A stretch of 23,339 nucleotides of DNA from a virus: positions 1-23,339 of the IMG/VR virus record IMGVR_UViG_3300030101_002769. One strand, 5' to 3'. The position numbers were made by a program, and so were the translations under genes. The notes beneath the pieces are model-generated. The model was given only the letters and a program-made list of their open reading frames with translations. It was not told the origin of the DNA and made no database searches. This document shows positions 949 through 18,530 of the stretch, in pieces; the stretch's first letter is position 1, and every line of letters starts with the position of its first letter.

Positions 949-2913
949 TCACTTTATTGTACCCCAATTTAAACCAAATTCATAGTCTACTTTGTTTTTG
1001 ACTTCTAAAGGAATGGTTTGTTCCATTGTATCTTTTATTATTTTTGATTCGTGGTCCGTGGTCGAAAAACAAAGTTCATCGTGTATTTGTATATGTGGTA
1101 TTATACCTTTTTCATGTAAGTCTACCATGGCCTTCTTTGTCATATCTGCAGCTGACCCTTGTATCAATCTATTCAAAGCCTTGTAGGTAAATGCAGGTGT
1201 ATAGTATCTTTCAAAATAGTTCATGTAGTTTGGATCAATTTTATTTTCTTTAAATTTTTCAAGCATCTCAGCTTTAAAAGCTTCTTCAGCTTGTTTTCTT
1301 GTATACAGAGGCACTTCGTTAAACCTATTAGTTTCAGAGTTCCACTGTTTGTTGGTTGTCTCCCATTTGTCAAACCTACAAAACCTGTCGTAGAGAGTAA
1401 ATAATAATTTATTTTCTTTTGCAAAAGCTATCAATTCTTGTGATAGCTGACGCACAAACGGCACCCTGCCGTGATATTCATTAAATAATTCTTTTGCCTG
1501 TCGCTGGTCCAGACCTAACTCCCTCTGTAGCTTAATCTTACCCATACCATAGAAAAGACCTAGGTTAATCGTTTTTGCCTGTTTCCTGGAGATATTAGCC
1601 ATGTCAGCGACTATCTGATGGAAATCAGCATCATCCCTATCAAATTCGTCCTGAAGGCTCTCTGTGCCTGGTAGGCCCAGTTTTATGGCGTAATGCACCA
1701 CAATACGTGGTTCTTGCTGTGAATAGTCAAAACTACCCCATTCATAGCCTTCCTCTGGAATAAATAGCTCCCTCATTTTTTTACCGATATAACCTTTGGC
1801 CGGTATCTGTTGCAAGTTAGGATTTGACATACTAAATCTACCAGTAACTGTGCCACCGGTATCTGATCTTATCTGATTTATATCTGCATGTATTCTACCA
1901 TTGTGAACGTATTCTAATAGTCCATCTATAAAAGTATTAACTGCTTTGTCATACTCTCTTGCCTTTGCAATCATACGCAAACATTTGTTACTATGTGTTT
2001 TAAGATAATCTTTTGGTAATTGTGGCATTTTAGATTTAGGAGTGACCTTGTAATCTTTTATGTGTAGTTGATCTAATAATTTTTTAATTGATGCTGCAGC
2101 CCAAATGTCGACTCTAATTGTTGTTAGTGATTCGATTGCTTTTAATATTTGATCTCTACGTTTCTTGAGATGTCTTCCAAACGTAATAGCTTTTGCGACA
2201 TCTATTCTAACGCCTTTAAATTTCATGTCAACCAAACACAGAAATAATTTTGTTTCTAATTCAAAAATTTTTCTACAAGTTTTTTGCTCGTTGTCTTCTG
2301 GTTTAGTGTATAATACTTCGTCAATTTTTTTATCAAAAAGTTTCCAAAGTTTTAAAGTTAAACTTACGTCTTGCTTTGCGTATTCTTTTACAATTGATGA
2401 AGGTAGTTTGTGCATGTTAGTCATCGGGTCCTTGACTGTGCCACCAGACCACTCTAAAGTTTTTTGTTGTAAATCGTATTTATATTTTTCTTCGTTAAGA
2501 TAATCTTTTGATAATGCATCGAGTGAATATCTAAATCTATTCTCATCAATTACAGATGCAGCTATCATTGTGTCAACTATTCTGCCTTTGATCATCATGC
2601 CTGTGACTGCTCTTATCCAACAAACATCATACATTGCATTGTGAAATACTTTTGTAATATTTTTGTTTTGAAATATTCTTTCGTTAAGAACGTCCCAAAT
2701 TCTTTCATCTCTTTTAAAATCTATAAATATATCAGAGTGACGTAGAGGAAAGTATGCAAGATCGTTATCTGTTGCAACAGCAATACCACAAATAAAACCA
2801 TCGTTACGTATTGCACCTGATCCTTTTGTTTTAAGATTAGGGTCGTATGTTTCGATATCTATTGCTACAGTATCTATACCTTCAAGATTTAAATCTTCTG
2901 GTGTGTTACACAT
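949..2913 (-). CDS. polA: Family A DNA polymerase with 3'-5' exonuclease domain
   Basis: The phage replicative polymerase, related to E. coli Pol I and T7 gp5. The N-terminal proofreading domain has exo I (D19-x-E21 in AIDIETYDP), exo II (HNAMYD, about 91-96) and exo III (YAKQD, about 178-182). The polymerase domain has TGRFSMSNPNLQQIP (about 356-370), motif A FDYSQQEPRI (about 394-403), motif B RKQAKTINLGLFYGMG (about 442-457) and motif C IHDE (about 609-612), so all expected catalytic residues are present. There is no 5'-3' exonuclease domain, as usual in phages. The residue equivalent to E. coli F762 is leucine (L450, in NLGLFYG). It overlaps the upstream DUF3310 gene by 8 bases, in an operon with primase and helicase. 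G+C content differs between its two halves: about 46% at 1441-1740 and about 30% at 2461-2760. Confidence 0.97.
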   Translation of the reverse strand: MCNTPEDLNLEGIDTVAIDIETYDPNLKTKGSGAIRNDGFICGIAVATDNDLAYFPLRHSDIFIDFKRDERIWDVLNERIFQNKNITKVFHNAMYDVCWIRAVTGMMIKGRIVDTMIAASVIDENRFRYSLDALSKDYLNEEKYKYDLQQKTLEWSGGTVKDPMTNMHKLPSSIVKEYAKQDVSLTLKLWKLFDKKIDEVLYTKPEDNEQKTCRKIFELETKLFLCLVDMKFKGVRIDVAKAITFGRHLKKRRDQILKAIESLTTIRVDIWAAASIKKLLDQLHIKDYKVTPKSKMPQLPKDYLKTHSNKCLRMIAKAREYDKAVNTFIDGLLEYVHNGRIHADINQIRSDTGGTVTGRFSMSNPNLQQIPAKGYIGKKMRELFIPEEGYEWGSFDYSQQEPRIVVHYAIKLGLPGTESLQDEFDRDDADFHQIVADMANISRKQAKTINLGLFYGMGKIKLQRELGLDQRQAKELFNEYHGRVPFVRQLSQELIAFAKENKLLFTLYDRFCRFDKWETTNKQWNSETNRFNEVPLYTRKQAEEAFKAEMLEKFKENKIDPNYMNYFERYYTPAFTYKALNRLIQGSAADMTKKAMVDLHEKGIIPHIQIHDELCFSTTDHESKIIKDTMEQTIPLEVKNKVDYEFGLNWGTIK

Positions 2914-3148
2914 CGTAATCTCTTTCTAATATCATCTCTAAATAATGTATTGCTTTTCTAATATCTTCTTCCTTCCCCTTTACAGAGTGTCTGCATATGT
3001 ATTTTATAGCATTGCCTTCCGCAAACAAGAGTTTATTTTCATTGATAAACTCTGCTGGCTGTATGCGAAAATTTTTATAATGTTTCCCGCCTACTTGTTT
3101 TTCTAAAGAATCGTATATCACTCCTTTAAATATTTGTTTGTCTGTCAT
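2906..3148 (-). CDS. DUF3310 family protein (SaV-like, often called nucleotide kinase)
   Basis: An 80-residue soluble protein. The pattern QVGGKHYKNFRIQPAEFINE, followed by GNAIKYICRHSVKGKEEDIRKAIHYL-type spacing (about residues 45-69), fits DUF3310, a small helical family found in many phages. The family is often labelled a putative nucleotide kinase, but the evidence for that activity is weak and no P-loop is visible here. The start overlaps the helicase stop as ATGA (3145-3148), with GGAG just upstream, so translation is probably coupled. The gene end overlaps the polymerase start by 8 bases. Its position between helicase and polymerase suggests a role in nucleotide metabolism or replication, which is inference from context. 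Confidence 0.85.
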   Translation of the reverse strand: MTDKQIFKGVIYDSLEKQVGGKHYKNFRIQPAEFINENKLLFAEGNAIKYICRHSVKGKEEDIRKAIHYLEMILERDYDV

Positions 3149-4692
3149 CTTACTCCTAACTTGTATTTATCTTGTGACGCTATAGTCCAACAATCAAATC
3201 TTCCTCGACTATACGCTACATATTTTAATCTTAACTGACTAAAATAATCTTCTGGTCTAAATCTTGTATCATCAACTATAACGTTGTCAAAAGTTAAACC
3301 TTTTACAGTATGTATGTTTGCATATTTAACTCTAACATCCTCGTCAAAGTTACATCTATTCTGTAAAATTTTTTTAATATATATTATTCTGTCTGGATCT
3401 GTTTTTGTTCTAAGTAATGAAAAGTCATCTTCTTTTAACACACTTGGTTTTAAATACTTTTTATTTATTAAATATTCTATGGTATACTCATGATCTATCC
3501 AGTCTTCAAAAGTTTCATCTCCCTTGCCATGCACTATGGCTTTGCTACCCATGTAACTCCAAAATTCTCTTATTTGTTTTAATTGTGTAGGTACACCTCT
3601 CCTAAACTCAGGCCATAATTTGTGACATCTTAATTCTTTTTTTGATACGTGAGCCGAGCTTCCTACATGTGCAAACTCTATTCCGTGTTGCTTTAAAAAA
3701 TTTTTGACCCATGAATCTGATGGTTTTTGACGATAGGTAAATAAAAAAGTTTCATTAGTGTTTTTTATTTTATCTAATAAAATTTCCATAGCACTACACG
3801 TTTGTTTTAAATTAGGTAGATGATAATGTTTTCCAACTATATCAGTGGACTTCCAAACTCTATGTGTTCCATAGTGATCCCAAATCGGAGCTATAATTCT
3901 TTTACACAAAGCATTTATAGTTTTGCTACATCTGTGTCCTTGTTCTAATTCTTTTGCACCTTTTGATAGTTTATAAAATTCATGTGCATCTGCTCCTGCC
4001 CATTCAAATATAGTTTGATCAGGGTCACCAACAAACCAATATTCTTTTGCATTTGTTGCTATTTTATCTAAAGCTATCTTTTGTGTTTTATTACTGTCTT
4101 GTGCCTCATCTACTATTAATGCATCTATATCAGGTTCAACTGCTTTCTCTATAAATCTTTTTATCATGTCATGAAAATCTAATTTACCATTAACTTTGTT
4201 ATATTCATCTACTATTGGTAACATTAATTCTATATCTGTTATGGAATATCTATTGTATTTTTTGTCTGATTTTTTCCAATGTTCTTTTAACGATCTATTA
4301 AATCCGTAAGCTTCTCTTACAAATCTAAAATAACCATGTTCTCTGTTATCAAATTCTGATTGTGTAACTTTGTGTCTTTGAAAGATAGAATCTATTCTAC
4401 ATAAATTTTTATAGTCATCGTAGTCAAGAACTTGTTCACCTATTGTAGCTTTGTTTTTACAATAGTGATGTATCGTGCATATGTTATGCTCTAGTGCTTT
4501 TTTAGTTACACCTTTCATTTCTTTTAATTTTAATATCTCATCTTTAATTTCATCGGCTGCAACATTTGTGTGTGATAATATTATAATTTTTTTGTAATCA
4601 AATTTTTTTAATAACTCTATATATTTACTAGTTATAAACGTAGAAGTTTTACCAGTGCCTGGAGGACCCACCATAAATTGTAATTTACTCAT
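3145..4692 (-). CDS. UvrD/Rep-like superfamily 1 DNA helicase
   Basis: A compact 515-residue SF1A helicase. Motif I is VGPPGTGKT (about 8-16), motif Ia SHTNVAADEI (about 40-49), motif II IVDEAQD (about 193-199), motif III VGDPDQTIFEWAGAD (about 221-235), motif IV EQGHRCSKTI with R254, motif V near HTVKGLTFDNV (about 458-468) and motif VI near VAYSRGR close to the C-terminus. All ATPase motifs are intact. It is shorter than bacterial UvrD (about 720 residues), consistent with reduced accessory subdomains. It would unwind duplex DNA 3'-5' using ATP at the phage fork or in repair/recombination. AAGGAG precedes the ATG at 4692, and the gene overlaps the primase stop by 8 bases. No DnaB- or Twinkle-type helicase is visible in the window, so this may be the main fork helicase. 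Confidence 0.95.
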   Translation of the reverse strand: MSKLQFMVGPPGTGKTSTFITSKYIELLKKFDYKKIIILSHTNVAADEIKDEILKLKEMKGVTKKALEHNICTIHHYCKNKATIGEQVLDYDDYKNLCRIDSIFQRHKVTQSEFDNREHGYFRFVREAYGFNRSLKEHWKKSDKKYNRYSITDIELMLPIVDEYNKVNGKLDFHDMIKRFIEKAVEPDIDALIVDEAQDSNKTQKIALDKIATNAKEYWFVGDPDQTIFEWAGADAHEFYKLSKGAKELEQGHRCSKTINALCKRIIAPIWDHYGTHRVWKSTDIVGKHYHLPNLKQTCSAMEILLDKIKNTNETFLFTYRQKPSDSWVKNFLKQHGIEFAHVGSSAHVSKKELRCHKLWPEFRRGVPTQLKQIREFWSYMGSKAIVHGKGDETFEDWIDHEYTIEYLINKKYLKPSVLKEDDFSLLRTKTDPDRIIYIKKILQNRCNFDEDVRVKYANIHTVKGLTFDNVIVDDTRFRPEDYFSQLRLKYVAYSRGRFDCWTIASQDKYKLGVR

Positions 4693-6121
4693 CAGTTATC
4701 TCCTTGTATTCTCCTTCAACAATTAAATCTTCTGTGCTAACAGCATGGTTTAAAATACGCCAAGATACACAAGATTTATTATTAAACTTGCCGTGATTCT
4801 TTTTTGCTTTTAAAATTTTTTGACATTTAATTACAAGATCAACTCTTAATAAATTTACTTTTTGTCTGTGAAGATAGTCTTCAAATTTATCTAAATTAAA
4901 CTCTAGTATATTTTTTTGTGTATTGTAATAAGGCAAACCAAAGTTTGCTAATTCTTTTTTGTTTGTATATGCTTTTTCTTCTGCAATATAATTTTTAAAA
5001 TGTTTTACAAATCTTAAATCCTCTTCTGCATCCTCTACATAATCTTTTGATTTTTCTCTTGCCTCATACTTTCTACGCATTATCTCTTCAAAATCTGCAG
5101 CTTTCATTTCTGGTATCCAAACAGAAGCTTTACTAATTACAGAATCATAAAATAATTTTTTATTTCTAAGTGTTGGACCATCTACAGTTATTGTTTTTTC
5201 TACAGCCTCACCCTGCACCACAGCATTTATCTTTACAAAATATCTGTCACTACCATACTCTATTATCTGTCCGATAGATTGCTTTGCTTCTTCACTTGTA
5301 GCTTCTTGTACACCTATCCAACTAAATATAGTTGCAATTGTTTTTGTAGAGCAACCAATAATCTCTGCAAGTTTTGGCATGCCAAACTTTCTATTTGCTT
5401 TTTTGTGTGTGGTTCCTTTTTTATTTCTTTTATCTGACTCTTCATCTTTTGCTGCAATAGCAATTTTATAAACAAAGTCGTCTATGTCATCTACGTTCCA
5501 CTCTGTATGTTTTAATAGAACACCTGCTACAGCTGTGCAGTAATCATCTCTTTGTCCTGCACCTGCATATGTAATACACAATGCAGCGGACAAAGCAATT
5601 TTGCCAAGATCAACTTTTATATTACCTGGGTACTCATCTATGCCATCGTACTTTACCCACTTAACTATTTCGTTTGTTGTATGATATTTAGTTTCTGGAA
5701 CTAATGTGTATTTATTTGCGCCATGTCTTATCTCACATAATGTTGCACCATGACCATAGTCTTTGTAATAATTTTCTAATTCTTTTGGTAATGCAAATTT
5801 TTTATAATCCGATGTGCCAGACCAAAGATAATGACTTGATGGATTATTTCTTCTACCAAATATTGCACCACATGATTTTATGTGATCGCTTGTAAATCTT
5901 TTAACGACAGGATTATCAATATCAAAATCTATGTATTGATCTAGTCTGAGTCCTATCTGTTTTGTTGCGTGTTCTATTTTCCATTCTTCTTTCGTAATTT
6001 TAAAATCTGGGTCAGACCATTTTTCGACCACAGCCTGCTTTGTATCACAGGGTATAATTACCCGTCCCAGATCTATCCAATCTTCATAATTAATAGGAGC
6101 CTTATTTATCTTATCATTCAT
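4685..6121 (-). CDS. Archaeo-eukaryotic-type primase-polymerase (PrimPol-like)
   Basis: A 478-residue protein whose N-terminus fits the bifunctional primase/polymerase (AEP/Prim-Pol) fold. It has a D-x-D metal site in YIDFDIDNP (D65, D67), an S-x-H motif in PSSHYLW (H97), and a third acidic strand in CEIRHGANKYTLVPETKY (E130, R132). These are the three AEP catalytic motifs in order and at normal spacing. A helical region at about 168-275 (AGAGQRDDYCTAVAGVLLKH) resembles the domain that often follows Prim-Pol in mobile elements. A lysine-rich C-terminal region shows no helicase motif. It would prime DNA synthesis for the family A polymerase. The gene starts 9 bases after a stable hairpin and has no Shine-Dalgarno, unlike most neighbours. 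Assignment is by motif only, so the family is likely but not certain. Confidence 0.82.
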   Translation of the reverse strand: MNDKINKAPINYEDWIDLGRVIIPCDTKQAVVEKWSDPDFKITKEEWKIEHATKQIGLRLDQYIDFDIDNPVVKRFTSDHIKSCGAIFGRRNNPSSHYLWSGTSDYKKFALPKELENYYKDYGHGATLCEIRHGANKYTLVPETKYHTTNEIVKWVKYDGIDEYPGNIKVDLGKIALSAALCITYAGAGQRDDYCTAVAGVLLKHTEWNVDDIDDFVYKIAIAAKDEESDKRNKKGTTHKKANRKFGMPKLAEIIGCSTKTIATIFSWIGVQEATSEEAKQSIGQIIEYGSDRYFVKINAVVQGEAVEKTITVDGPTLRNKKLFYDSVISKASVWIPEMKAADFEEIMRRKYEAREKSKDYVEDAEEDLRFVKHFKNYIAEEKAYTNKKELANFGLPYYNTQKNILEFNLDKFEDYLHRQKVNLLRVDLVIKCQKILKAKKNHGKFNNKSCVSWRILNHAVSTEDLIVEGEYKEITDE

Positions 6122-6130
6122 AAATTAAAA

Positions 6131-6164
6131 AGTGGGCGTATCCACTCTCGCTTAGACGCCCACT
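6131..6164 (-). terminator. Rho-independent-like terminator or attenuator before the primase gene
   Basis: A perfect 9-bp inverted repeat, AGTGGGCGT at 6131-6139 and ACGCCCACT at 6156-6164, with a 16-base loop. Read leftwards, the stem is followed directly by TTTTT, as in an intrinsic terminator. It lies 11 bases after the stop of the 6175-6927 gene and just before the primase start at 6121. A smaller alternative hairpin (AGTGG at 6131-6135 with CCACT at 6142-6146) would exclude the main one, so partial termination or processing is possible. The loop is longer than in typical terminators. Confidence 0.6.
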
Positions 6165-6174
6165 ACCTAGGATC

Positions 6175-6927
6175 TTATAAATTTAAAGATTTTTTAGTTT
6201 GCTCTTGAACTTCAGGCTTAGCTTCTATCTCACCTTTACCTACACTTGTTGCAAAAGATTTTGCCATGTCATAGATACCTTTATCTGTAACTGGTCCAAC
6301 CTTTGACACATCCCAACCAAACCATGTTCCTTTGTCGTTAGACATCTGAACGGTTGATAGTTTATAAATGTGGCTGTATGTAGGCGGTGTAAATAAACCA
6401 TTTTTACCTTGCATTTTCAAACCCATCATCATTGAGTTCCACTTTCTACTAACTTTTAATTGAGTAGATTTCATAGAAATCAATGCGGTCTCTGGATTAT
6501 TGCCTAGACAAAGCACAAAATGACTAGCAGTATTATCAAGATAATTACCATTTGGTAATCTATCTTTGTAATCTTTACCTCTAGTTGTTTGACTTATGAT
6601 ATCACTATCTGCATCGTGTATCGCAACAGGTGCACCTGTACTTGTGCCTCTGTCTTGCCATTCAATGTATTGTCTTTTGTAATGACATGGTATCACATCA
6701 ATAGTATCGTACAATTCATTAGTGACAGTGTTTATTATTTTGCCTGGCTCTGCGCCCTCGACATATTTACCATCTCTTTTGTTTACCTCTGGAGATAGTT
6801 GGCCCAAAATTTTTAAGAAAGGCAACGCAAGATCTTCTTGCGATATATTTTGAGCTCCTTGTTGTGCGTCAGCTTCCATATCAAATGTAGCCAATGCACC
6901 ATTCTTTTTTTCTGCTACTTGGTTCAT
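6175..6927 (-). CDS. Conserved phage protein, possible single-stranded DNA-binding protein (250 aa)
   Basis: A soluble 250-residue protein beginning MNQVAEKKNGALATFDMEAD, with AAAGGAAC 7 bases before the ATG. The first 35 residues are polar and probably disordered. The core contains LPFLKILGQLSPEVNKRDG (about 36-54), GAEPGKIINTVT, a strand-rich part with FVLCLGNNPETALISMKSTQLK, and WFGWDVSKVGPV. The tail is charged. Similar proteins occur among replication genes of marine phages, and the position upstream of the primase fits an ssDNA-binding or recombination accessory role. I see no diagnostic OB-fold signature, so the function is inference from context. It is followed by a hairpin terminator, so it may be transcribed more abundantly than the genes downstream, as expected for a stoichiometric DNA-binding protein. 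Confidence 0.75.
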   Translation of the reverse strand: MNQVAEKKNGALATFDMEADAQQGAQNISQEDLALPFLKILGQLSPEVNKRDGKYVEGAEPGKIINTVTNELYDTIDVIPCHYKRQYIEWQDRGTSTGAPVAIHDADSDIISQTTRGKDYKDRLPNGNYLDNTASHFVLCLGNNPETALISMKSTQLKVSRKWNSMMMGLKMQGKNGLFTPPTYSHIYKLSTVQMSNDKGTWFGWDVSKVGPVTDKGIYDMAKSFATSVGKGEIEAKPEVQEQTKKSLNL

Positions 6928-6928
6928 G

Positions 6929-7480
6929 TTACTTGTTCCTTTTTATTGTAGTTTTATTTTCAGAGTATACTCCAAAAATTTCCGTTGGCATTTCTTTTCC
7001 TGCCTCAATACGTTCACGGACTAACGCTTTCAGAGTCATGGGCTCAACCTTCATCTTTTGTGTTGGTTGAAACCCTTGACCCTTCGCAAGTTCAGCGTAG
7101 GACGCTGCCTTGTTATCTTCGTTACGACCAAAAGACACCGAGATCTCGTTTTTAATGATATCTCCTAGTCCATTGTTACGAAGCCAGTTAAACGCCGTTT
7201 CTTTATTTGCTTCCGTTATGGTAGCTCGATACGTCGTTGAAACTTTTAAGTGAGATCCATCTTGCAGTTTTAATTCTGCTAGCCCCATCTCACTCATCAT
7301 TGTCGGTATAATATCTCCAGAAATTTTTTCAATCTCTTTTTTAGTATTTTTAATATTATCCTCCTGTAGTTCTAATCTACTTTGTAATGATTCTAGTTTT
7401 TCTACTTGATCTGCAAGTGACTGAATACCTTCAGTCTTTTTCATTGCATCTTGTTGATCTGCTTCAAAATTAATTGTCAT
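6929..7480 (-). CDS. Conserved phage protein with N-terminal coiled coil (183 aa)
   Basis: Residues 18-55 are a heptad-rich helix (SLADQVEKLESLQSRLELQE and on), very likely a coiled coil giving dimers or higher oligomers. It is followed by a globular part (MMSEMGLAELKLQDGSHLKV, then TITEANKETAFNWLRNNGLG) and a C-terminal part containing MTLKALVRERIEAGKEMPTE, IFGVY and a basic tail. There are no catalytic motifs or membrane segments. AAGGAG precedes the ATG at 7480 by 7 bases, and the start overlaps the upstream stop as ATGA. It ends 1 base before the possible ssDNA-binding protein gene, so the two may be partners. I do not recognise a named family. The coiled-coil coding part is AT-rich, whereas the rest is near 50% G+C at 7081-7140. 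Confidence 0.78.
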   Translation of the reverse strand: MTINFEADQQDAMKKTEGIQSLADQVEKLESLQSRLELQEDNIKNTKKEIEKISGDIIPTMMSEMGLAELKLQDGSHLKVSTTYRATITEANKETAFNWLRNNGLGDIIKNEISVSFGRNEDNKAASYAELAKGQGFQPTQKMKVEPMTLKALVRERIEAGKEMPTEIFGVYSENKTTIKRNK

Positions 7481-7755
7481 ACTTTTACTCCTTTTGAATT
7501 TACTAAAACAAATTCAAATTTATCTTCAAGATCATCAACGGGGTAACCTCTTTTTTCACATTCATCATACAATCCTCTAGGATAATCTAATCTTTCTATT
7601 TCAAATTCATCACCTGGCATAAATTTAAGCATGTTATGTGATTCTTTAACTACAAAATTATGAGACATGTTAGGATTTGCTCCATCTGCAACACCTCCAT
7701 AATCTTCTATTCTCCAATCACTAGAATAGGTATATAAAACTAATTTTCTATTCAT
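7477..7755 (-). CDS. Hypothetical phage protein (92 aa)
   Basis: A 92-residue acidic soluble protein beginning MNRKLVLYTYSSDWRIEDYG, with AAAGGA 8 bases before the ATG. It contains PGDEFEIERLDYPRG and a C-terminal strand (FEFVLVNSKG). No family is recognised and no membrane segment or nucleic-acid-binding motif is visible. It overlaps the upstream gene by 8 bases and the downstream gene by 4 (ATGA), so it is co-translated within the replication operon. It is probably a small early protein. Its function cannot be predicted from sequence. Confidence 0.7.
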   Translation of the reverse strand: MNRKLVLYTYSSDWRIEDYGGVADGANPNMSHNFVVKESHNMLKFMPGDEFEIERLDYPRGLYDECEKRGYPVDDLEDKFEFVLVNSKGVKV

Positions 7756-8104
7756 CTATTTTTCCTTTCTCGTACAAATTAATTGTTATAGGATAGTATT
7801 TTAATTCTTGTCTATCCCATTTTAGTAAATGATATTTACCATTTGTAATATCAGAAACTAAAGAACATGCTATACCTATAATAGCTGGATCACCAGTGCA
7901 TAATATATAATCTTCTTTTTTAAAGTTCTTTAATTTTTTTCTTAACTCGTAAATAAGAGGACCTGGTGAAAAAATTATTTGTGAAAATTCTGGTAGTAAA
8001 AATTCTAATCTTCCAAATTCTTTTGCACCTAAAATATTTATTCTAGGTCTACCATACCTTGTTCCAGGTATTTCTTGAATAACATAAACTATTCTTTCTG
8101 ACAT
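7748..8104 (-). CDS. Conserved early phage protein (118 aa), first gene of the leftward replication operon
   Basis: The ATG at 8104 is chosen, giving MSERIVYVIQEIPGTRYGRP. The open frame continues upstream to 8203, but that extension would read through the divergent control palindrome and into the oppositely oriented helicase gene. The protein has strand-rich segments (RINILGAKEFGRLEFLLPE; IIFSPGPL), a basic helix (LRKKLKNFKKEDY), then LCTGDPAIIGIACSLVSD and LLKWDRQELKYYPI. It looks like a family I associate with marine phages, without known function. No Shine-Dalgarno precedes the ATG, and the candidate leftward transcript would start only about 4 bases upstream, so it may be read as a nearly leaderless message. 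It overlaps the next gene by 8 bases. Confidence 0.75.
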   Translation of the reverse strand: MSERIVYVIQEIPGTRYGRPRINILGAKEFGRLEFLLPEFSQIIFSPGPLIYELRKKLKNFKKEDYILCTGDPAIIGIACSLVSDITNGKYHLLKWDRQELKYYPITINLYEKGKIDE

Positions 8105-8110
8105 TATGAC

Positions 8111-8143
8111 TTGACATATAAGGTATCCTGGATTATATGTCAA
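8111..8143. promoter_or_regulatory. Palindromic divergent promoter or operator
   Basis: A perfect 11-bp inverted repeat, TTGACATATAA (8111-8121) and TTATATGTCAA (8133-8143), separated by 11 bases. Each arm holds a consensus -35 box TTGACA facing inward. Seventeen bases beyond each lies TATATG, a 4-of-6 match to a -10 box: 8134-8139 for the rightward promoter, 8115-8120 for the leftward one. The rightward start would be near 8146, ahead of the SNF2 gene; the leftward start near 8108, ahead of the replication operon. The symmetry also suits a dimeric regulator. The -10 boxes lack the final T, so promoter strength is uncertain. Confidence 0.65.
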
Positions 8144-8164
8144 CCTTAGAAAGAAGAAAATAAT

Positions 8165-9595
8165 ATGAATTATAAATTTAAGACAAAGCCATACGAGCAT
8201 CAATTGACTGCTTTAGAAAAGTCATGGAACAAAGAAAACTACGCATACTTTATGGAGATGGGTACAGGTAAAACAAAAGTATTAATAGATAACGTCGCCA
8301 TGTTATATGACAAAGGTAAAATTAATGGTGCCTTAATTATTGCACCAAAAGGTGTTGTTAAAACTTGGTATGAACAAGAACTACCAACACACTTACCAAA
8401 TCATATTGAAAATGTGACTGTATTGTGGCAACCAAATATCACAAAAACACAACAAGAAAAACTTGAAACATTATTTGAAATAGAGACTGCACTACACATT
8501 TTAGTTATGAACGTAGAAGCCTTTAGTACAGACAAGGGTAAAAAGTTTGCAGAAAAATTCGTAGCTAGTCATAATACTTTAATGGCTGTTGATGAGTCTA
8601 CTACAATTAAAACACCTTCAGCTCGTAGAACTAAAAATATAATAGCTGTTGGTAAAGAAGCAAAATACAAAAGAATACTTACAGGTTCACCTATTACAAA
8701 GAATCCTCTTGATTTATATAGTCAGTGTGAGTTCCTTGATCCGTGGTTATTGGACTTTACATCATACTACGCGTTTCGTAATCGTTATGCAGAAATGAAA
8801 ACTATGCATCTTCGTGGTCGATCAATACAGGTTGTTAGTGAATTTAAAAACCTTGGTGAGTTGTCTGATACGGTGAAGAACTTTTCATACAGGGTATTGA
8901 AAGAAGATTGTTTAGATTTACCACCAAAGAATTTTATCAAAAGACATATACAACTTACACCGGATCAAAAGAAAGTGTATCAACAAATGAAGAAAGCAGC
9001 CATGGCCGTGTTAAATGGTAAAGTGACTACGACTATGACTGTGCTTACACAATTGATGCGTCTACATCAAATAACTTGTGGTTATGTAACAGCTGACGAT
9101 GGTTCTGTGCAATCTGTTGAAAGCAATAGAATGAATGAGTTAATATCTATTCTTGAAGAGACAGAAGGTAAAGCTATTATCTGGGCCAACTATCAAATGA
9201 GTGTTGGAGATATCATAAAACAACTTACAAAGAAGTTTGGTGATAAATGTTATGTGCACTATTATGGTTTGACACCACAAGAGATAAGACAAGAAAATAT
9301 TAAACGTTTTCAAACTGATCCAGAGTGTAGATTTTTGATAGGTACACCACAAACAGGTGGTTATGGTATTACACTTACACAAGCAAACACTGTAATTTAT
9401 TATTCTAATGGTTATGATTTAGAGAAAAGACTACAATCAGAAGATAGAGCACACCGTATAGGTCAGAAAAAAACTGTAACATATATTGATATCATTGCTG
9501 AAGATACAGTTGACGAAAAGATTGTAAAAGCTTTACGTGATAAGATTAATATTGCGTCTGAAGTTATGGGTGAAAAATTAAAAGAATGGATCTAA
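8165..9595 (+). CDS. SNF2-family (SF2) DNA helicase/translocase
   Basis: A 476-residue SNF2-like ATPase. It has a Q-type motif (PYEHQLTALE, about 9-18), motif I FMEMGTGKT (about 29-37), motif Ia IIAPKGVVKTW (about 58-68), motif II VDES with T146 (DEST rather than DEAH), motif III LTGSPITKNPLDLYSQ (about 172-187), motif IV AIIWANYQ, motif V TGGYGITLTQANTVIYYS, and motif VI QSEDRAHRIGQ (about 428-438). This set is typical of short phage SNF2 proteins acting on double-stranded DNA in replication, recombination or transcription. It is the only plus-strand gene in the window, driven by the divergent palindrome 22 bases upstream with only a weak AGAAG ribosome site. Its stop overlaps that of the convergent M15 peptidase gene by 3 bases. 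Confidence 0.95.
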   Translation: MNYKFKTKPYEHQLTALEKSWNKENYAYFMEMGTGKTKVLIDNVAMLYDKGKINGALIIAPKGVVKTWYEQELPTHLPNHIENVTVLWQPNITKTQQEKLETLFEIETALHILVMNVEAFSTDKGKKFAEKFVASHNTLMAVDESTTIKTPSARRTKNIIAVGKEAKYKRILTGSPITKNPLDLYSQCEFLDPWLLDFTSYYAFRNRYAEMKTMHLRGRSIQVVSEFKNLGELSDTVKNFSYRVLKEDCLDLPPKNFIKRHIQLTPDQKKVYQQMKKAAMAVLNGKVTTTMTVLTQLMRLHQITCGYVTADDGSVQSVESNRMNELISILEETEGKAIIWANYQMSVGDIIKQLTKKFGDKCYVHYYGLTPQEIRQENIKRFQTDPECRFLIGTPQTGGYGITLTQANTVIYYSNGYDLEKRLQSEDRAHRIGQKKTVTYIDIIAEDTVDEKIVKALRDKINIASEVMGEKLKEWI

Positions 9596-16629: not shown

Positions 16630-18530
16630 TATATGACTTCTCCTAGTCTTTGTGATGTTTGAAACATTTTTCTAGCGCCTTCTAATCCTTGCGATTCCTC
16701 AGATACTTCACCTCCGGATTCGAGGTTTTTCATCATGTTATACATAACTTCTGCGCCTTTGTCTATATTTCCATCTCCTGCATTTCTTACAGCATCTGCT
16801 GTAAATACGAATTCATTCTTTGATAATCTAGCGGGTACATCATCAGCTCTTTCCATTCTACCCATTTCTACAAAACCACCTGTTTCTCTATAATCCTTTT
16901 CCATACCATCCATGTCTATTAGTGGCATGGTCTTCTTGGCTACTGGTTCTGCATCTCCACCTTCTTGATATCCTATTCTACCACCGTCAGCAGCGAATTG
17001 ACTACCCTCGAATCTTGGAGCCAAAACTTTAAATGGATTATCTCTTGATGCAATTAAATCAAAATCATCTTCCTCTTCTTGTTGTAATTCTTGTTTTTGT
17101 TTAGGTGTTAGTGCACCTGCTAATACTGATGATCCTGTAATTAATCCCATAGGGCTTTTTAAAAATTTTAAAAGACCACCTGATCTTTGTGCAAACCCTT
17201 GTTTCATAGTTGCTTCACCTAAAATAGAATCTGTTAAAAATTTTTTAAGTCCTAAACCAGTTTTAGTACCCATTAAACCTTTAGAGAAAAAACCAGTTTT
17301 TACACCTGGTATTCCAAAACCAACGGCTCCTAATATAGCAGCTTTACCTATTGGTGACTTTACAATTTTCTTAACACCTTTTGTAACTTTTTTTACAAGT
17401 TTACCCAGACCATACATCTGTCTACCCATTTCATCCATAGAATCATCAGCGAAACCACCTATAACATCTGTGTTCATGATGCCACCGTCCATAGCATTTG
17501 CTCTTAAATTATCAAAATCAAAATCAAATAAGGAACCACCGAATCTTGCAGCTAATCCTCTGTTTATGTCATCTATATCTTCATCTTCTGATGTAGTTGC
17601 GGTTGTTGTAGGTGCTGTAGTTGTAGGAACTACTTGAGGTATAATTTGATTGTCTGGTCCCTCACCACCTATTGATGTAAATGAACCTGGAACTGGACCT
17701 TCTCTAAAACCACCCATGGGTCTACCATATGCACCAATAACTCCTTGAGTTCTTAACTGTGAATATTTTTTTTTCCCTGCATCTTCTGTAAGATCAATGC
17801 CAAGTCTCTTATTAACTTTTTCTAATAATTCTGGATCATCTGTTATTTCTCCTATAATATTACCAAATGGATCTTTTGGTAATATATTTTTTAATATATT
17901 AGTAGTAGAGGGTATCTTACCTAAAAATTTTTCAATAGCGCTTTGTTCTCCAATTGCTTTTGCAGTTGCTGCATCATCCTCATCATCTTCTTCTATAGCG
18001 CCCAAACTTTTTAAAGTTTCAATCTTATCAAATCTACTAGTATCTTCTCCAAGAAATTTACCTGTTATATTAGGATTACCAAATCTTGTGGTAGTGCTTC
18101 TTCCTAAAATACCAAGTTGTTCTTGTTGCTTTCTTCTTTGTTCCTCTAAAATTCTTTGTTTTCGCTCTTTTTCTTGTTGTTCTTTTATTTTTAAATTTTT
18201 TTTAAATTCTGCTGCAGCAGCGTCAGCGATTTTTTGTGGTGCTCCATAAACCTGTTGCGTCCCTCTATCTCTATATTGTTTACTTGTTTTTTGATAATCT
18301 CTTTTACTTTCTCCTCTTTGTTGAAAATCTCTATCTCTACCTTGTCTTTCTGGTCCTTTACCTCCAGGAGAGCTATCTCTTAATCCACCACCAGAGGCAT
18401 CGTAATTAGCTCTTCTATAACCTGGTCTTAAACCATTTTTAGATGGTTTAGCTATACTGAAACCTATATCTTCTGTAACTCCACCATCCCTTAACATTTG
18501 TTTTACCTGTTGTGCTCTAGTTATTGCCAT
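16629..18530 (-). CDS. Large virion-type protein with ADGGR and VPARLSKNEFV motifs (633 aa)
   Basis: Begins MAITRAQQVKQMLRDGGVTE. The N-terminal third is polar, Arg/Gly/Gln-rich and probably disordered, with a strongly charged coiled coil at about 105-140 (KIKEQQEKERKQRILEEQRR). A Thr-rich linker (VVPTTTAPTTTATTSEDED) precedes a basic hydrophobic region (about 375-475: KKIVKSPIGKAAILGAVGFG; GLITGSSVLAGALTPKQ). Around residue 515 is FAADGGRIGYQEGG. Near residue 565 is DDVPARLSKNEFVFTADAVR, which resembles the DxVPAxLxxGEFVxxxxAV element at the C-termini of many phage tape-measure and other virion proteins. It therefore probably belongs to the particle, perhaps as a tape-measure-like or ejection component. 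No Shine-Dalgarno is seen before the ATG, and its stop is TAATG-coupled to the next gene. Confidence 0.8.
   Translation of the reverse strand: MAITRAQQVKQMLRDGGVTEDIGFSIAKPSKNGLRPGYRRANYDASGGGLRDSSPGGKGPERQGRDRDFQQRGESKRDYQKTSKQYRDRGTQQVYGAPQKIADAAAAEFKKNLKIKEQQEKERKQRILEEQRRKQQEQLGILGRSTTTRFGNPNITGKFLGEDTSRFDKIETLKSLGAIEEDDEDDAATAKAIGEQSAIEKFLGKIPSTTNILKNILPKDPFGNIIGEITDDPELLEKVNKRLGIDLTEDAGKKKYSQLRTQGVIGAYGRPMGGFREGPVPGSFTSIGGEGPDNQIIPQVVPTTTAPTTTATTSEDEDIDDINRGLAARFGGSLFDFDFDNLRANAMDGGIMNTDVIGGFADDSMDEMGRQMYGLGKLVKKVTKGVKKIVKSPIGKAAILGAVGFGIPGVKTGFFSKGLMGTKTGLGLKKFLTDSILGEATMKQGFAQRSGGLLKFLKSPMGLITGSSVLAGALTPKQKQELQQEEEDDFDLIASRDNPFKVLAPRFEGSQFAADGGRIGYQEGGDAEPVAKKTMPLIDMDGMEKDYRETGGFVEMGRMERADDVPARLSKNEFVFTADAVRNAGDGNIDKGAEVMYNMMKNLESGGEVSEESQGLEGARKMFQTSQRLGEVI

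Follow-up and report, generated by a model that had tools for sequence, protein, structure and literature searches.

Two interlocked, oppositely directed promoters probably make up a 33-bp symmetric element between the helicase gene and the replication operon of an HTVC023P-type pelagiphage

Introduction

Divergent, overlapping promoters that are combined with an operator are familiar from the lambda-type repressor switches and from divergent regulator/target gene pairs. A different type of divergent arrangement, the bacterial bidirectional promoter, has been described by Warman, Grainger and colleagues: short symmetric DNA can be bound by the sigma70 RNA polymerase in both orientations, one at a time for steric reasons, which results in divergent transcripts (PMC12825309; PMC10268837). 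These promoters usually share a -10 element, their start sites typically lie 18 (also 10 or 23) bp apart, and in Escherichia coli competition between the two directions matters only when one of them is strongly active (PMC12825309). With respect to the promoters of the Alphaproteobacteria, most of those recognized by sigma70 lack a T at position -7 (PMC8407463); leaderless mRNAs are known in this group of bacteria and are common in Caulobacter (PMC4117421).

Here, we analyzed a virus record of 23,339 bases, referred to in the following in its full length as the window, whose gene content is that of an HTVC023P-type pelagiphage. Among annotated phages, it is closest to 023Pt_psg01 and to the cultured Pelagibacter phage HTVC027P. 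The 33-bp form of the element described below has five matches in bacterial genomes, four of which are phage contigs in SAR11 single-cell genomes, and this location supports SAR11, the ocean's commonest bacterium, as the host of these phages. HTVC023P-type pelagiphages are widespread in the ocean (PMC9599517), and HTVC027P, which possesses no RNA polymerase gene of its own, is said to rely on the enzyme of its host throughout infection (PMC12753301). Our literature searches found no papers on palindromic or face-to-face promoters in phages, and the literature searched contained no promoter description for the HTVC023P-type pelagiphages.

Results

The element under study is located between a helicase gene and a replication operon that point away from each other:

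8165–9595, plus strand: SNF2-related helicase gene (PF00176, PF00271; phrog_62)
7748–8104, minus strand: first gene of the replication operon, Pam3 gp32-like (PF23992), with its ATG at 8104
949–7755, minus strand: remaining replication operon, encoding Pam3 gp33/gp34-like proteins, a UvrD-type helicase, a small DUF3310-like protein and DNA polymerase A

One of the proteins encoded within the 949–7755 stretch is a probable primase, judged solely by its position, and the order of the replication-operon genes is identical in HTVC027P and 023Pt_psg01. As the original prediction had it, the SNF2-like helicase gene and the replication operon are divergent and separated by a 60-bp gap (8105–8164), the middle of which is occupied by the 33-bp element. 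At positions 289–939 of the window, the PHROG label (phrog_3704) reads "ferredoxin", and the HTVC027P protein at the equivalent position is annotated as phosphoribosylaminoimidazole synthetase (PurM); the label is probably wrong for one of the two.

The element, TTGACATATAAGGTATCCTGGATTATATGTCAA, is an interrupted inverted repeat with the layout TTGACATATAA-N11-TTATATGTCAA, into which the following putative promoter parts can be placed; the occurrence of the hexamers is given for the unique elements of the two length classes found in relatives (see below):

8111–8143, no strand: 33-bp symmetric element, 11-bp inverted arms around 11 bp; sequence kept in relatives
8111–8116, plus strand: -35 TTGACA toward the SNF2 gene; TTGACA in 24/24 unique 33-bp and 61/62 unique 37-bp elements
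8134–8139, plus strand: -10 TATATG, 17 bp from the -35 hexamer that faces the SNF2 gene; of the unique elements, 23/24 with 33 bp and 53/62 with 37 bp have TATAT at this distance
8138–8143, minus strand: -35 TTGACA toward the replication operon; sequence kept in relatives
8115–8120, minus strand: -10 TATATG toward the replication operon, 17-bp spacer; TATAT at 16–17 bp in 24/24 unique 33-bp and 48/62 unique 37-bp elements

The element had been introduced as a perfect palindrome. This description is accurate for the two 11-bp arms, which are exact reverse complements of each other, and does not extend to the central 11 bases, which are non-symmetric. The spacing claimed at the same time was recovered without any deviation, as TTGACA and TATATG are exactly 17 bp apart on both strands (8111–8116 and 8134–8139; 8143–8138 and 8120–8115). 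On either strand, the -35 hexamer corresponds to the consensus in all six positions. TATATG agrees with TATAAT in four of six positions; it carries a T instead of an A at -8 and lacks the T at -7, and it would be acceptable as a -10 element since alphaproteobacterial promoters mostly lack this T as well. The minus-strand -10 region overlaps the plus-strand -35 region by 2 bp, and all but one of the 11 bases of an arm belong to a -35 or a -10 hexamer. A general repeat search did not list this exact repeat, and the arms were recomputed by script; the general promoter scan skipped the element because it requires a T at the last -10 position. The window contains one other TTGACA-type site (10395, minus strand, inside a coding sequence). 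HTVC027P and 023Pt_psg01 each possess about six further TTGACA-type sites, and because some of these are accompanied by TATATA, the use of TATATA as a -10 element is not special to this junction.

Palindrome statistics alone are insufficient to establish the significance of such a repeat: dinucleotide shuffles predict 0.225 inverted repeats per 23-kb window (arms of at least 11 bases, loop of at most 20), and two are observed. The other one, ATATTACCAAA-N7-TTTGGTAATAT, is likewise perfect and lies at positions 17857–17885 inside a minus-strand coding sequence. A different picture emerges from the conservation of the arms in relatives, to which the original prediction had tied its own case. The 33-bp form TTGACATATA-N13-TATATGTCAA matches at least 119 stretches in IMG/VR, on contigs that are related to each other, whereas the composition-matched palindrome ATATACAGTT-N13-AACTGTATAT has 0 matches in this database. 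Among the 119 matches listed, both neighbors, the left gene and the SNF2 homologue, flank the element in 113 cases, and at least one of them does so in 116, which places 116 of 119 at the same junction. The arrangement is retained by well over 100 related viruses, and the element is therefore a real compact control site and not a chance palindrome; the surplus of repeats that would be in keeping with a functionless palindrome notwithstanding, we regard the probability of this explanation as negligible.

Three of the 119 matches belong to an unrelated phage group (L192:3387–3419, L197:5343–5375 and L372:1976–2008), which apparently makes independent use of the same geometry. In L192 and L372, the 33-bp element clearly separates small divergent genes that carry AAAGGAG ribosome-binding sites. 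Furthermore, TTGACATATAATGCCATACGGCATATATGTCAA is present at L366:1016–1048 in a contig of a groundwater Proteobacteria MAG with 69% GC, where a symmetric, AT-rich element is embedded in cellular DNA of high GC content.

For a comparison among relatives, the sequences upstream of the SNF2 homologues at 231 loci were inspected; 149 of these loci contained both TTGACA boxes. In these 149 relatives, the element is 37 bp (113 cases), 33 bp (33), 36 bp (2) or 38 bp (1) long. Lengths of 34 and 35 bp are unused; both look compatible with TATATN, so that promoter rules alone leave the 33/37 bimodality unexplained, and our search for a reason behind it found none. The T at -8 is strict among the relatives. 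Between the 33-bp and the 37-bp register, the distance from TTGACA to ATATA within one arm changes from -1/0 to 3/4, hence by about 4 bp, while the promoter spacer is stable in both registers (17 bp in the forward and 16–17 bp in the reverse direction). From the promoter spacing that was kept and the arm-internal spacing that was altered, we infer that two rigid promoters have been shifted against each other by 4 bp. Parsimony on the helicase protein tree yields eight register changes, at least three of them forced by well-supported branches, and a larger, faster helicase tree yields eight changes for the 33-bp class, five or more of them forced, counts that could be mimicked by recombination moving elements between lineages. 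Relatives that break the symmetry still carry promoter-like boxes, such as TATTAT at 16 bp in L085 and TAAAGT in L094. In the HTVC027P clade, the motif reads TTGACT-N17-TATATA, and its central TATATA could serve either direction; several members of the 023Pt-like clade have lost the reverse TATAT box yet kept TTGACA.

If these hexamers are read by the host enzyme, their fate in host chromosomes is informative. Across 99 genomes of the SAR11 family, which are related so that the counts are not independent of each other, TTGACA-N17-TATAAT occurs 4 times versus 79 times for the reversed pattern, TTGACA-N17-TATAT occurs 37 times, a count that includes the phage element twice, versus 146 for the reversed control, and TTGACA-N24-TATAT occurs 87 times versus 111 for its reversed control. 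In 197 genomes, TTGACA-N17-TATATG occurs 8 times (two of them again the phage element), compared with about 48 control matches according to an approximate tally by hand. A shortage that depends on the 17-bp distance would be expected from selection against stray promoters, and avoidance of this kind has a precedent (PMC1939733). Since SAR11 chromosomes avoid the two boxes when they are 17 bp apart, and not when they are 24 bp apart, the host polymerase probably reads the TTGACA-N17-TATAT motif; the counts also suggest that the streamlined SAR11 chromosomes strongly avoid consensus promoters.

The position of the hexamers allows the ends of the putative transcripts to be predicted:

8146, plus strand: predicted transcription start toward the SNF2 gene, 7 bp after the -10 element
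8108, minus strand: start toward the replication operon as predicted from the hexamers, with the start codon 4 nt downstream
8148–8156, plus strand: AGAAAGAAG, a purine-rich, conserved ribosome-binding-site-like stretch in front of the SNF2 start codon

The distance between the two predicted starts is 38 bp in the window; in the relatives with the 37-bp element, it is 33 bp. The helicase mRNA would possess a leader of about 19 nt that carries AGAAAGAAG. Throughout the unique elements of the clade to which the window belongs, and in both registers, the start codon of the operon is found 1–5 nt from the predicted start, and the replication-operon mRNA is consequently predicted to be near-leaderless. 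Upstream of SNF2 in relatives such as L006 and L009, AGAAAG occurs on both sides of the element; it precedes the start codon of SNF2 on one side, whereas on the other it closely follows that of the left gene (ATGTCAGAAAG). Public RNA-seq data of HTVC027P are deposited under PRJNA1253180; the published expression text on this phage does not state the timing of transcription of this gene pair.

Discussion

The comparison of relatives lends support to the central proposal of the original prediction, two fully overlapping promoters that face the SNF2 gene and the replication operon, respectively. We consider it highly probable, on grounds of sequence comparison, that the element represents two interlocked, oppositely directed sigma70-type promoters for the RNA polymerase of the SAR11 host. 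One of them would transcribe the SNF2-like helicase gene and the other the replication operon, each being composed of TTGACA, a spacer of 16–17 bp, and TATATN. In the 33-bp register, each -10 element would overlap the opposite -35 element by two bases (TATATG/TGTCAA), so that the arms necessarily resemble inverted repeats; the 37-bp register would harbor the same two promoters, slid by 4 bp. As the hexamers make up nearly the entire arm, its symmetry would mostly be a by-product of the two overlapping promoters. The host polymerase would bind in one orientation or the other, and because it covers far more than 33 bp, two polymerases could not occupy the element together, making the pair mutually exclusive at any moment. 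It is conceivable, and we put this forward with reservation, that the interlocking itself serves as a regulatory device, in which the tight (33 bp) or loose (37 bp) geometry balances transcription of the helicase gene against that of the replication operon in the absence of any regulator.

The symmetry invites another interpretation, in which the arms are an operator and a dimeric protein of the phage or its host binds two TTGACATATAA half-sites, thereby repressing or switching both promoters. Operators and divergent promoters often coincide, the 11-bp arms are exact, and the conservation of TATAT is stricter than a -10 hexamer would appear to require. An operator half-site, however, would have kept its own spacing, and the constant half-site spacing by which a palindromic operator is recognized was not found: the arm-internal spacing shifts by about 4 bp, whereas that of the promoters stays as it is. 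Moreover, in many relatives only one of the two arms is preserved, several lose the symmetry but keep a promoter, and mirror positions outside the hexamers vary independently. The compensatory changes between the arms that were anticipated for a dimeric regulator were not seen, and position 11 can be A or G irrespective of the base at its mirror position. The -35 and -10 hexamers already account for 10 of the 11 arm bases that an operator would have to explain. Pfam recognized no regulator protein in the operon of the window, and no DNA-binding regulator, helix-turn-helix proteins included, among 30 small or unannotated proteins of HTVC027P, although a regulator of an unknown type could have escaped this search. 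Taken together, neither the dimeric regulator nor the compact early switch of the original prediction is supported, and we judge an operator to be improbable.

A functional promoter might also be present in one direction only, the other half being weak or decorative, as is the case in many bidirectional promoters with one trivial RNA. In keeping with this, 14 unique 37-bp elements lack the reverse TATAT, most of them in the 023Pt-like clade. Real genes abut the element on both sides, however; every unique element of the window's clade, in two registers, has the operon start codon 1–5 nt from the predicted start, and no other TTGACA-type promoter precedes the replication operon in the window. 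A single working direction is thus unlikely in our estimation. An inverted repeat with 11-bp arms could furthermore form a hairpin or cruciform, be it as a terminator, an origin, or a processing or packaging signal, and the records of HTVC027P and 023Pt begin at this very junction. But the start point of a record can be the choice of its annotator, the arms are AT-rich and lack a T-tract, the starts predicted for the transcripts lie downstream of the repeat, and it is the sequence that is conserved, not just the pairing. A structure of this kind in place of a promoter is therefore very unlikely.

The reading of the element as two interlocked promoters provides the HTVC023P-type phages with a predicted promoter architecture, TTGACA-N17-TATATN read by the host polymerase, and it specifies to the base where transcription of the replication operon and of the helicase gene is predicted to begin. 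When viewed in the context of known systems, the element resembles the alphaproteobacterial sigma70 promoters (PMC8407463) in its TTG-type -35 region and in a -10 region without T at -7. It differs from them in that the -7 base is a G in the 33-bp register, where this position is shared with the -35 element of the other promoter. With the lambda-type repressor switches and other divergent promoters equipped with an operator, it has in common that a compact intergenic site serves two divergent operons. In contrast to these systems, neither of the flanking genes is a known regulator, no adjacent regulator gene was recognized, and there is no conserved half-site spacing.

In principle, the element would work in the same manner as the bacterial bidirectional promoters: as predicted here from the DNA sequence, a single stretch of 33 bp would be too short for two polymerases at once. 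While those promoters usually share their -10 element, each direction here has a separate -10 box and a full TTGACA box of its own; each -10 box abuts or overlaps the opposite -35 box, and the predicted starts are 33–38 bp apart. The HTVC027P clade comes closer to the described type, since its central TATATA can be used from both sides and thus roughly corresponds to a shared -10 element. Collectively, the geometry of the element would be an addition to the commonly described forms of bacterial bidirectional promoters.
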